The position numbers and the translations under genes were made by a program. 64,000 bases of DNA from Desulfocapsa sp. (lineage in GTDB: Bacteria > Desulfobacterota > Desulfobulbia > Desulfobulbales > Desulfocapsaceae), in the NCBI GenBank assembly GCA_024763035.1, contig JANTGG010000001.1, forward strand, positions 1-64,000, given 5' to 3'. Position 1 is the stretch's first letter; each line of letters opens with the position of its first letter. This document shows positions 43,737 to 48,272 of this stretch, in pieces. Below the pieces are notes generated by a model. That model was given only the letters and a program-made list of their open reading frames with translations, ran no database searches and was not told the origin of the DNA.

Positions 43737-43857
43737 GCCGGCATAAGTGCCTCGAAGGTCTCGTGCCTCGCTATTTGCTTATGTTTGTAACATTTTGTCA
43801 TTAAAGCGAGTATGGAACTTCGTGTTTTTTGTTACAGCTTTTCAGGAGTAAGGCACT
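43714..43857 (+). repeat. Dispersed repeat family 2 (copy A)
   Basis: ctaacaccggtgatgaacggtaagccggcataagtgcctcg...ggaacttcgtgttttttgttacagcttttcaggagtaaggcac; spans the RicT-like stop codon and the metG 5-prime region. Confidence 0.85.
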
Positions 43858-43885
43858 AAAGAGTAATATCTTCAAGAATACAGCC

Positions 43886-45826
43886 ATGACAACCTATATA
43901 ACCACCCCCATATATTACGTGAATGCGCAGCCGCACCTCGGGCATGCATATACTACCATTATTGCAGATACCTACAGCCGTTTTCGCAGGTTGGAGGGTG
44001 ATGATGTCCGCTTCCAGACGGGAACGGATGAGCATGGGGATAAAATTGCAGAGGCGGCAGAAAAGCAGGGGCTAAGTCCCAGGGAGTATGTGGATCGGAT
44101 CAGCGCCATGTTCCGTGATACCTGGCCGCTTTTACATATCACTCCGGATAATTTTATTCGCACCACCGACACCGGTCATATCGCTCTGGTACAGAAGCTT
44201 CTGCAGCAGGTATATGACAAGGGAGATATTTATTTTGACGAGTATTCCGGGAACTACTGCAAGGGCTGTGAGCGTTTCCTCACTGAAAAAGAGCTTATGG
44301 ACGGCAAATGCCCGGACCATCAGACAGTACCCGAAGAGATTACAGAGCAGAACTATTTTTTCCGGATGTCTAAATATCAGCAGCAGCTGATTGACCATAT
44401 TCAGACCAATCCCGAGTTTATCACCCCGGAGAGATATCGGAACGAAGTACTCTCATTTTTAAGCGAACCACTGGAAGATCTCTGTATCTCCCGGCCCACC
44501 TCCCGACTCACCTGGGGGATCCAACTGCCCTTCGACTCCTCATTTGTCACCTATGTCTGGTTTGATGCCCTTATCAATTATCTCACCGGTCTTGGATACC
44601 CCGATGATGAAAAATTTGCCAGATACTGGGGCTCGGCAGAGCATCTGATAGCAAAGGATATCCTGAAACCCCACGCGATTTTCTGGCCGACCATGCTCCT
44701 TTCCATGGAGATCCCCCTCTATAAAAAACTGCACGTCCACGGGTACTGGAACGTGGATGAGACGAAGATGTCCAAGAGCATCGGCAATGTGGTGCGTCCG
44801 GCAGAGCTTGTGGAGGAGTACGGAGCGGATTGCCTGCGCTACTTTGTTCTGCGGGAGATGTCCTTTGGGCTCGATGCCTCATTTAGTTCCGATGCCATTG
44901 TTGCCCGTAAAAACTCTGATCTGGCAAATGATCTCGGCAATCTTTACAGCCGTTCAATGGCGATGCTGGTAAAATATACCGGTGGTGTCGTGCCCGATCC
45001 CGGCAAGGATGACAGTGATGATACCCTGCTGCGGGATCTGGCGGCATCGGTGTTGATCCGTTACCGGAAGGCCATGTCGAATTTTGAATTCCACCGTGGA
45101 CTGCAGGCGGTGTGGGAGCTTATCAGCCTTGCCAACAAGTACATCGTCAGTAATGAACCCTGGACCCTTGTGAAGGATCCTGCCATGGAGGGGCGTCTGC
45201 ATGCGGTGCTTTATAACCTGATTGAGACCCTGCGCCTGCTGGCACTTATGCTTCAGCCGGTTATGCCGGAGACCTGTGCGAAGATGACTACGGGGCTGGG
45301 GCTGCCTGTCGATAGTCCGTTTGTAACGGATCTTGCTCAGGGGGGAGACTGGGGGCTGTTTCCGGCGGGTACGGGTCTTGTGGCAATTGACGCCCTTTTT
45401 CCGCGTATGGAGAAAAAGAAGGTTTCAAAAAAACAGCAAAAAAAAGGGAAGCCCGCAAAGAAAAAGAAAAAAGTGGTGGAGGAATCCCTGGAAGGCATGA
45501 TAAGCTTTGAGCAGTTTCAGGGTGTGGATCTGCGGGTGGCGGAGATTGTGGCTGCCGAGCCTGTAAAGAAATCTGACCGGTTGTTAAAGCTCACGGTGAA
45601 AGCACCGCAGGAACGGGTGATTGTTGCCGGAATTGCCGAGTATTACAGTGCCAGTGAACTGATCGGGATGCAGGTCCTGATTGTTGCTAATCTGAAACCG
45701 GTTCGCCTGATGGGCGTTGAGTCGCAGGGAATGGTGCTTGCCGCTAAAGAGGAAGTGGATGGCAGGACGCAGCTGGTTTTATCCACGGTGAGTGGAAAAG
45801 TTGCACCCGGCTCACGGGTGGCATAG
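43886..45826 (+). CDS. metG: Methionyl-tRNA synthetase with C-terminal tRNA-binding domain
   Basis: YITTPIYYVNAQPHLGHAYTTIIADT; MSKSIGNVV; C-terminal EQFQGVDLRVAEIVAAEPV. Confidence 0.97.
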   Translation: MTTYITTPIYYVNAQPHLGHAYTTIIADTYSRFRRLEGDDVRFQTGTDEHGDKIAEAAEKQGLSPREYVDRISAMFRDTWPLLHITPDNFIRTTDTGHIALVQKLLQQVYDKGDIYFDEYSGNYCKGCERFLTEKELMDGKCPDHQTVPEEITEQNYFFRMSKYQQQLIDHIQTNPEFITPERYRNEVLSFLSEPLEDLCISRPTSRLTWGIQLPFDSSFVTYVWFDALINYLTGLGYPDDEKFARYWGSAEHLIAKDILKPHAIFWPTMLLSMEIPLYKKLHVHGYWNVDETKMSKSIGNVVRPAELVEEYGADCLRYFVLREMSFGLDASFSSDAIVARKNSDLANDLGNLYSRSMAMLVKYTGGVVPDPGKDDSDDTLLRDLAASVLIRYRKAMSNFEFHRGLQAVWELISLANKYIVSNEPWTLVKDPAMEGRLHAVLYNLIETLRLLALMLQPVMPETCAKMTTGLGLPVDSPFVTDLAQGGDWGLFPAGTGLVAIDALFPRMEKKKVSKKQQKKGKPAKKKKKVVEESLEGMISFEQFQGVDLRVAEIVAAEPVKKSDRLLKLTVKAPQERVIVAGIAEYYSASELIGMQVLIVANLKPVRLMGVESQGMVLAAKEEVDGRTQLVLSTVSGKVAPGSRVA

Positions 45827-45845
45827 ACACGTATGGAGTTTCCAG

Positions 45846-46145
45846 ATGTTTGTTGTAAATAATTTTATGATGGCTGTGGCGCAGCTGATAGATTTTCTTC
45901 TCACTGCCTATATGTGGGTTATTATAGGTCGGGCCGTTATCTCCTGGGTCAGTGCAGATCCTTCCAATCCCATTGTCCGGTTTTTATATGAGGCAACAGA
46001 GCCTGCGTTGAGTCGTATCAGAAGGTTTCTGCCCATGAGCATGGGTGGTATCGATTTCTCACCCATGATTCTGATTATGGCAATCATGTTTCTGCAAAGT
46101 TTTCTTGTCCCCACCTTAAAACAGCTTGCCATGGGAATGGGCTGA
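45846..46145 (+). CDS. YggT family membrane protein
   Basis: LLTAYMWVIIGRAVISWVSADPSNPIVRFLYEATEPALSRIRRFLP. Confidence 0.92.
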   Translation: MFVVNNFMMAVAQLIDFLLTAYMWVIIGRAVISWVSADPSNPIVRFLYEATEPALSRIRRFLPMSMGGIDFSPMILIMAIMFLQSFLVPTLKQLAMGMG

Positions 46146-46199: not shown

Positions 46200-47222
46200 A
46201 TGTCTATAACTCCGCAAATGATTAAGGATCAGGAATTTGAAGTAAAGTTCAGGGGGTTTGACCCCATTGAGGTGCGTGATTATCTCGAAGTCATCGCCAA
46301 TGAGTTTTTTGCGATGCAGGAGGATTTTAAGGAGCAGCTCGAAGAACTTGACGAATTGCGTGAGGAGAAGGCAAATTCCGAGTCGCAAAACAGTTCTCTG
46401 GAAACGGACATGGAGTTCACCCGGAAGGTCACCGATGAACTTAAAGAGAGTTGCGCCCAGAAAGATGAGACCATTGAAGAGCAGCAAAAAGAGATTGAAG
46501 AGCTGCAGCTGCGTATAGCCGACATTGAGCAGGAAAAGGTGGAGCAGGAGGAGGAAGTCAGTGCGGCAGAGGCGCGAATTGAAGAGATGGAGAATGCTCT
46601 TGCCGCAGCACAGGAAGAAAAGGAAAGAGTTGAACGCAAGGCTGCTCTTCTTCAGGATAAGAACGAAGAGTTGCAGAAGGAGGAGGTCGATTTTAAATCC
46701 ACCCTTGCTGCTGCCCAGCATTTCGCTGAAGATTTGAAAGAGAAAAGCAGGGTTGAGGCAGAAGAGATGATTGCCGCAGCCCACGCCGAAATCAACACGA
46801 TCCGTGATAATGCCAAGGAGGAACTCGAACGACTGCCAAAAGAGATTGAGATCCTGAAATCCAAGAAGGGCAAGGTGAAAAACGAGTTGAAGGGTATCCT
46901 TGAAACCTACCTGGAAACGCTTGATGTCTTTTATCCTGAGGGGGAGGAACCACGGGGAGAGGACAGTAATGAGGCGGCAGATGAAAACGAGCTCTTTCAA
47001 AAAGTGGAGATCGGGGAGGATGGAACCATTACCCAGGAAGATCTTGATAAATTTGATCTTAATGGTGAAGATCCTGTTCTGAAGGGACCCGTGGATGATG
47101 AGGCACTTGCCACCCTGTTTGGTCAGGGGGACGAAGAGGAATCGGAATCAGATGAAGGGAATGATTTGCTGAAGGCCCTTGATGACGACATTGAAGGGGA
47201 TGGTGAAAAGGGGAGTTTCTAA
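46200..47222 (+). CDS. DivIVA domain coiled-coil protein
   Basis: ITPQMIKDQEFEVKFRGFDPIEVRDYLEVIANEF; long coiled coil. Confidence 0.92.
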   Translation: MSITPQMIKDQEFEVKFRGFDPIEVRDYLEVIANEFFAMQEDFKEQLEELDELREEKANSESQNSSLETDMEFTRKVTDELKESCAQKDETIEEQQKEIEELQLRIADIEQEKVEQEEEVSAAEARIEEMENALAAAQEEKERVERKAALLQDKNEELQKEEVDFKSTLAAAQHFAEDLKEKSRVEAEEMIAAAHAEINTIRDNAKEELERLPKEIEILKSKKGKVKNELKGILETYLETLDVFYPEGEEPRGEDSNEAADENELFQKVEIGEDGTITQEDLDKFDLNGEDPVLKGPVDDEALATLFGQGDEEESESDEGNDLLKALDDDIEGDGEKGSF

Positions 47223-47523
47223 GGTGCCCTTTCTTTCCCCCTGGAAGGATGGACGAACTCTCCTCAATCTGCACGTACAGCCAAAAGCATCCGCCAACCG
47301 CATGGTTGGTATCCACGATAATCGCCTGAAACTGGCACTCACCGCAGCACCGGTGGACGGCAAAGCAAACAGTGCTGTTATTGCATTCCTGGCCTCATTT
47401 CTGGGGTTGAAAAAAAAAGACATTGAGATCCGGCACGGCATGCATTCCCGCAGGAAAGCTGTGCTTCTTGATTGCCCGGACAGTGGAGAAATACGGGCGA
47501 AGATTATGTCTGCACTTCAGTAA
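47200..47523 (+). CDS. DUF167 (YggU) family protein
   Basis: LNLHVQPKASANRMVGIHDNRLKLALTAAPVDGKANSAVIAFLA. Confidence 0.9.
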   Translation: MVKRGVSKVPFLSPWKDGRTLLNLHVQPKASANRMVGIHDNRLKLALTAAPVDGKANSAVIAFLASFLGLKKKDIEIRHGMHSRRKAVLLDCPDSGEIRAKIMSALQ

Positions 47524-47573: not shown

Positions 47574-48272
47574 ATGAAAAAGTATGTTGTCGGGAACTGG
47601 AAGTGTAATAAGGGGCGCCGGGAGGCCCAGAAGTGGTTCGCAGAATTTGCAGATTGTTATACGCCAGTTTCCAGTCTTGAGGTCATCGTTGCCCCATCCC
47701 TTGTCTGTCTCCTCACTCTGTCGCAGTATGTTGAAGCGCTGCAGCTCGAAAATGTTTCCCTCGCCGCCCAGGATGTTTCTCCCTTTCCCAAAGGCTCATA
47801 TACCGGTGCCGTGGCAGCTGATATGCTGAGAGGTCTTGTGGATTACGTGATCATCGGTCATTCGGAACGGAGAAGATACTTCCATGAGACGTCTCTGGAA
47901 ACGGCGAATAAGATGGCAGAATCTGTGGATGCCGGTCTCAAACCCATTGTCTGTATCGATCAGCCCTACGCCATGTCTCAGCTCACTGCTTTAAATGATA
48001 TCGACTGTGATGATATGCTCCTTGCCTATGGTCCGGTTGATGCGGTCACTGCACGTGTGCCTGAGGAGGTAAGCCGGGTTGCTGAAGCAGTTGATTTTAT
48101 CAAGCAGGTACAGCCCAAGCGTCCCGTTTTGTATGGCGGCTCTCTTCGCCCTGACAATGCGGAGGAGTATGTTGCCCTGTCCCAGCTCTCCGGACTGTTT
48201 GTGGGAGAGTCCAGCCTGGATGCGGGAACATTTGCTTCTATCTGTGCAATTGTTGGAAAAACCCTGGGCTAA
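47574..48272 (+). CDS. tpiA: Triosephosphate isomerase-like protein with altered catalytic loop
   Basis: GNWKCN, IGHSERRRYF, LYGGSLRPDNAEEYV present; YEPVWAIGTG region reads YGPVDAVTAR. Confidence 0.85.
   Translation: MKKYVVGNWKCNKGRREAQKWFAEFADCYTPVSSLEVIVAPSLVCLLTLSQYVEALQLENVSLAAQDVSPFPKGSYTGAVAADMLRGLVDYVIIGHSERRRYFHETSLETANKMAESVDAGLKPIVCIDQPYAMSQLTALNDIDCDDMLLAYGPVDAVTARVPEEVSRVAEAVDFIKQVQPKRPVLYGGSLRPDNAEEYVALSQLSGLFVGESSLDAGTFASICAIVGKTLG

Follow-up and report, generated by a model that had tools for sequence, protein, structure and literature searches.

Why a member of the triosephosphate isomerase (TIM) family should be maintained without the glutamate on which the isomerase depends is the question raised by tpi2 (47574–48272), a 232-residue TIM paralogue encoded in the window, the 64,000-nucleotide stretch of Desulfocapsa sp. 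DNA analysed here. The open reading frame is genuine, with an ATG at 47574 and a stop codon at 48270–48272, and like all other window features placed below it lies on the forward strand. PF00121 covers the protein over its full length (E = 5.7e-48; 164 bits against a cut-off of 20.1; profile positions 2–243 of 245), and the motifs NWKC (residues 8–11), GHSERR (95–100) and YGGS (187–190) are intact, so that the Asn, Lys, His95 and Glu97 of the TIM enzyme and the Gly-Gly of loop 7 are all present. The loop-6 region reads AYGPVDAVTARVPEE; here AYGPVDAVTAR (48024–48056) replaces AYEPVWAIGTG in both the translation and the alignment of homologues. Within it, G153 (codon ggt, 48030–48032) is aligned with the catalytic Glu165, and in place of the lid motif PxWAIGTG stands PVDAVTAR, without the IGTG tip. 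Both the translation and the PF00121 alignment agree with the first-pass annotation, which had described intact motifs but an absent catalytic Glu. Scored against the TIM equivalog TIGR00419, tpi2 reaches 93.6 where the cut-off is 130.6, and the other NCBIfam TIM models that match it all likewise remain under their cut-offs. The AlphaFold model of Tpi2 is confident (pLDDT 89.0, pTM 0.89), and the solved structures nearest to it are all TIMs, with TM-scores of about 0.8–0.9 (0.86 to 6bve), from which we infer that Tpi2 adopts the TIM barrel fold.

To place this copy among its relatives, residues were counted over three sets: 124 distinct tpi2 proteins, 32 canonical TIM copies of the same order and 79 TIMs from outside it. 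Glu165 is kept in 32/32 canonical copies and 79/79 outside TIMs, and is replaced in 123/124 tpi2 proteins (Gly 69, Thr 41, Cys 8, Ser 3, Asn 1, Asp 1, leaving Glu in 1). The sole Glu belongs to L129 from genome G034, a degenerate copy with H95Q and GSE for GGS; L207, from the same genus, has the normal tpi2 motif. The proposed paralogue without catalytic Glu and loop 6 is supported, with the Glu lost across the whole clade. Because the equal loss recurs in homologues of independent genomes, a sequencing error at the Glu site is excluded, and a Glu merely displaced in the fold, also raised earlier, finds no counterpart in the alignment of tpi2, which has no Glu at or beside position 165.

The remaining substitutions follow a pattern. 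Position 168, a Trp in canonical TIM, is acidic in 107/124 tpi2 proteins (Glu 62, Asp 45), E129 is left in 5 of the 124, the loop-6 tip is variable, and both Ser96 (86/124) and Ser211 (75/124) are relaxed. In the normal enzyme, S96 is hydrogen-bonded to Glu165, W168 and E129 form a pair, and loop 6 is held by the side chains of S211 and Y208 (PMC12874384); with residue roles described in this way for both the lost and the retained positions (PMC12874384, PMC3431843), the tpi2 losses, Y208 apart, fall on base and lid. Thus, the base E165 and its helpers, namely the loop-6 tip I170–G173, the W168–E129 hinge pair, S96 and S211, are lost or relaxed together, whereas the ligand-facing part (N10/11, K12/13, H95, E97, Y208, G209–G210 and G232) is near-fixed. 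The retained Asn-Trp-Lys (N8, W9 and K10; 47595–47603), which supplies the substrate Asn and Lys12/13, shows N in 122/122 and K in 121/122 scored sequences; the electrophile His95 and Glu97 (H96 and E98 in tpi2; 47859–47867) show H in 123/124 and E in 118 with D in 5 of 124; and the phosphate-binding YGGS of loop 7 (48132–48143) shows Tyr208 in 122 and Gly209 and Gly210 each in 123, with Gly232 at 114 and Cys126 at 124 of 124. Among columns invariant in the canonical copies, 9/12 pocket columns are at least 90% kept in tpi2, compared with 1/10 base/lid columns (Fisher p = 0.004) and 16/51 others (p = 0.008 against pocket), in counts that ignore relatedness and with pocket and base/lid sets chosen by hand from known TIM structures. 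Judged from these alignments, the kept residues are mainly ligand-facing. A new acidic residue has meanwhile appeared at the end of strand 5, where D129 (47958–47960) occupies canonical position 128: this position is Gly in 32/32 canonical copies of the order and Asp (106) or Glu (13) in 119/124 tpi2 proteins, making it a candidate relocated acid/base.

A search profile (A1) built from 36 members returned a tpi2-level match in 135/243 genomes of the order, taken to be Desulfobulbales from named relatives (Desulfocapsa, Desulforhopalus, Desulfobulbaceae), in which the scores of tpi2 (at least 169 bits) and of canonical copies (at most 137 bits) do not overlap. In a sample of 345 genomes from the whole phylum, no tpi2 was found outside this order, and scores above 159 bits came from order members only. 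In a quick tree, the sampled tpi2 proteins all fall on one side of a branch with SH-aLRT 99, and the order's canonical TIM copies lie beyond another branch, also with SH-aLRT 99. By sequence, tpi2 is an old, order-specific TIM paralogue forming one supported clade, which may have arisen either as a second copy of the resident tpiA or from a short TIM acquired by transfer. Pairwise dN/dS between close relatives is 0.03–0.12, with some pairs saturated at synonymous sites, and by this measure tpi2 is functional and under strong purifying selection. As would fit a pseudoenzyme or ligand sensor, a catalytic residue has been lost clade-wide from a gene on which purifying selection acts. Two tpi2-level matches each were seen in genomes G023, G065, G094, G101, G137 and G169, with two internal stops in one G169 copy. 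In G033, a single-contig genome, the tpi2 reading is divided between two overlapping frames (L134, G033:C1:26736-27403) and so looks like a broken copy.

The first-pass annotation had also considered that tpi2 might be the only tpiA of its genome, with glycolysis then depending on a non-standard TIM. This idea was rejected, as a canonical tpiA containing AYEPVWAIGTGK is present in the same genome (G000:C68:12495-13232), flanked by pgk and a secG-like gene, both neighbours identified by visual inspection of their sequences. Within the genus a second TIM gene is the norm: 18/20 genomes searched, the genome of the window included, gave two matches. In ten genomes only tpi2 was found, and the six examined for PGK (G086, G134, G214, G245, G240 and G177) contained no full-length PGK gene (none at all in five, a fragment in one), so that these assemblies probably lack the linked pgk-tpiA segment; we therefore did not accept a real loss of tpiA. 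G086 is rated 99% complete and yielded neither PGK nor canonical TIM, probably through a missing contig. In the genome paper of Desulfocapsa sulfexigens, the passage on these genes lists two TIM genes, UWK_00786 and UWK_01623, the former adjoining the PGK gene UWK_00787; both are given as TIM there, and that passage makes no mention of a missing residue (PMC3739170). From this gene order, UWK_01623 is probably the tpi2 of D. sulfexigens.

Upstream of tpi2 lie metG (43829–45826), yggT (45792–46145; a listed ORF with PF02325, its start overlapping metG), a divIVA-domain gene (46200–47222; PF05103) and, immediately adjacent, yggU (DUF167; 47179–47523; a listed ORF with PF02594, its start overlapping divIVA). 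This order, metG-yggT-(divIVA)-yggU followed by tpi2, is conserved in the window's family (f1) and in many members of f12. In the other families sampled, tpi2 is located elsewhere and no common neighbours were seen, and most of the genomes checked that lack tpi2 have yggT and/or a divIVA-like gene close to yggU. Since the block with tpi2 is limited to two families and its other genes also associate without tpi2, it is a local arrangement and tells little of function. The neighbourhood hints only weakly that tpi2 takes part in cell division or polarity, and the candidate functional link to DivIVA is weakened on the same grounds.

What, then, does Tpi2 do? Our preferred reading, to which we give roughly an even chance, is that Tpi2 is a functional non-isomerase that binds triose phosphate or a similar phosphorylated ligand and acts mainly as a sensor or regulator. 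Under this reading, which draws on residue conservation and the predicted structure, the protein would no longer run the Glu165 proton shuttle, its pocket is predicted still to take triose phosphate or a similar anion, and acting chiefly as a sensor or regulator would be the simplest function for it. A milder change at the Glu165 residue already entails a 420-fold loss in kcat/Km (PMC12874384). Against this interpretation, the near-perfect retention of His95 is equally expected of an enzyme, and the acidic residue now standing at 128 could itself have become catalytic.

The latter leads to the strongest competitor, in which the active site was relocated, the carboxylate having shifted between strand ends, from 165 on strand 6 to 128 on the neighbouring strand 5, in an enzyme acting on another phosphorylated substrate or in a slow isomerase. 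The exchange of G128 and E165 in all 32 canonical copies for D/E128 in 119/124 and Gly, Thr, Cys or Ser at 165 in 121/124 tpi2 proteins speaks for such a move, as do Cys126, which is two residues before 128 and close enough to a Glu165 oxygen for van der Waals contact (PMC3431843), and the enzyme-like retention of His95, Lys, Asn and Glu97. However, loop 6, which provides the phosphate grip and desolvates the base, has no conserved replacement in tpi2, and a CPR TIM from Nealsonbacteria (L066) has D128 alongside E165, so that D128 is not tied to the loss of Glu; we consider the relocation possible but appreciably less probable than a binding role. Glu168 was also considered as the replacement base, a proposal weakened because the archaeal TIM hinge has Glu at 168 (PMC12874384). 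Slightly less probable again is a pair of more specific outcomes, in which either the migration of the carboxylate from strand 6 to strand 5 created a new enzyme, or a TIM-derived triose-phosphate sensor came to be encoded beside DivIVA and YggT genes in two families.

Loop 3, through which Thr75 docks on the other subunit of TIM dimers, would suit a prozyme-like partner that pairs with TpiA and alters its activity. Thr75 is kept in 121/124 tpi2 proteins, and as the six genomes that yielded only tpi2 also lack a full-length PGK gene, they provide no clear counter-example to such pairing; yet Glu77 of the same loop is Ala in 106/124, and canonical tpiA occurs without tpi2 in many genomes of the order, which leaves this option improbable. 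The PF00121 match far above its cut-off would equally fit an ordinary divergent TIM with a merely misaligned Glu165, but the conserved flanking residues Tyr164 (117/124) and Pro166 (123/124) fix the register of the alignment, and with the score short of the TIGR00419 cut-off we regard this as very unlikely. Least credible is a decaying pseudogene or assembly artefact, already refuted by the data for the window copy: a few decayed copies do exist (L129, that of G169 with internal stops, the split one in G033), but nearly all 135 genomes with a tpi2-level match have an open frame, dN/dS is low and the pocket is near-fixed.

TIM is the model enzyme for the interplay of a carboxylate base with a lid that closes, and a natural clade that lacks both, with the remaining site under selection, offers a ready test of which residues serve binding and which chemistry. 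It also implies that TIM-annotated genes of these sulfur-metabolising bacteria may not encode isomerases. Within the open-access literature, no account of a TIM clade without the catalytic base or of TIM pseudoenzymes came to light, which does not prove absence, and nothing relevant on the TIM of cable bacteria.

Compared with known systems, tpi2 resembles TpiA (EC 5.3.1.1; PF00121) in fold, in the Asn-Lys-His-Glu97 site, in phosphate loops 7 and 8 and in length coverage, but differs from it by the missing Glu165 and IGTG tip, the replacement of W168 and E129, a shorter chain after strand 5 and scores under the NCBIfam equivalog cut-offs. Archaeal TIMs (PRK04302), which retain the catalytic Glu, are matched only weakly by tpi2 (40.6 bits, cut-off 132). 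Their PPE hinge resembles tpi2 in its acidic residue at 168 (PMC12874384). A short chain is shared with the TIMs of Patescibacteria (CPR) and with short TIMs in the PDB (7r9b, 7r7m); unlike tpi2, the CPR TIMs checked have Glu165 and a largely intact AIGTG tip, and 7r9b, the best PDB sequence match of tpi2, has Asp at the Glu165 position, AYDPKEAIGTGK, and hence still carries a carboxylate there. A change of role within the family has a parallel in L-erythrulose-1-phosphate isomerase (PDB 11ef), a TIM paralogue turned to another substrate, which retains the catalytic Glu and is only distantly similar to tpi2.
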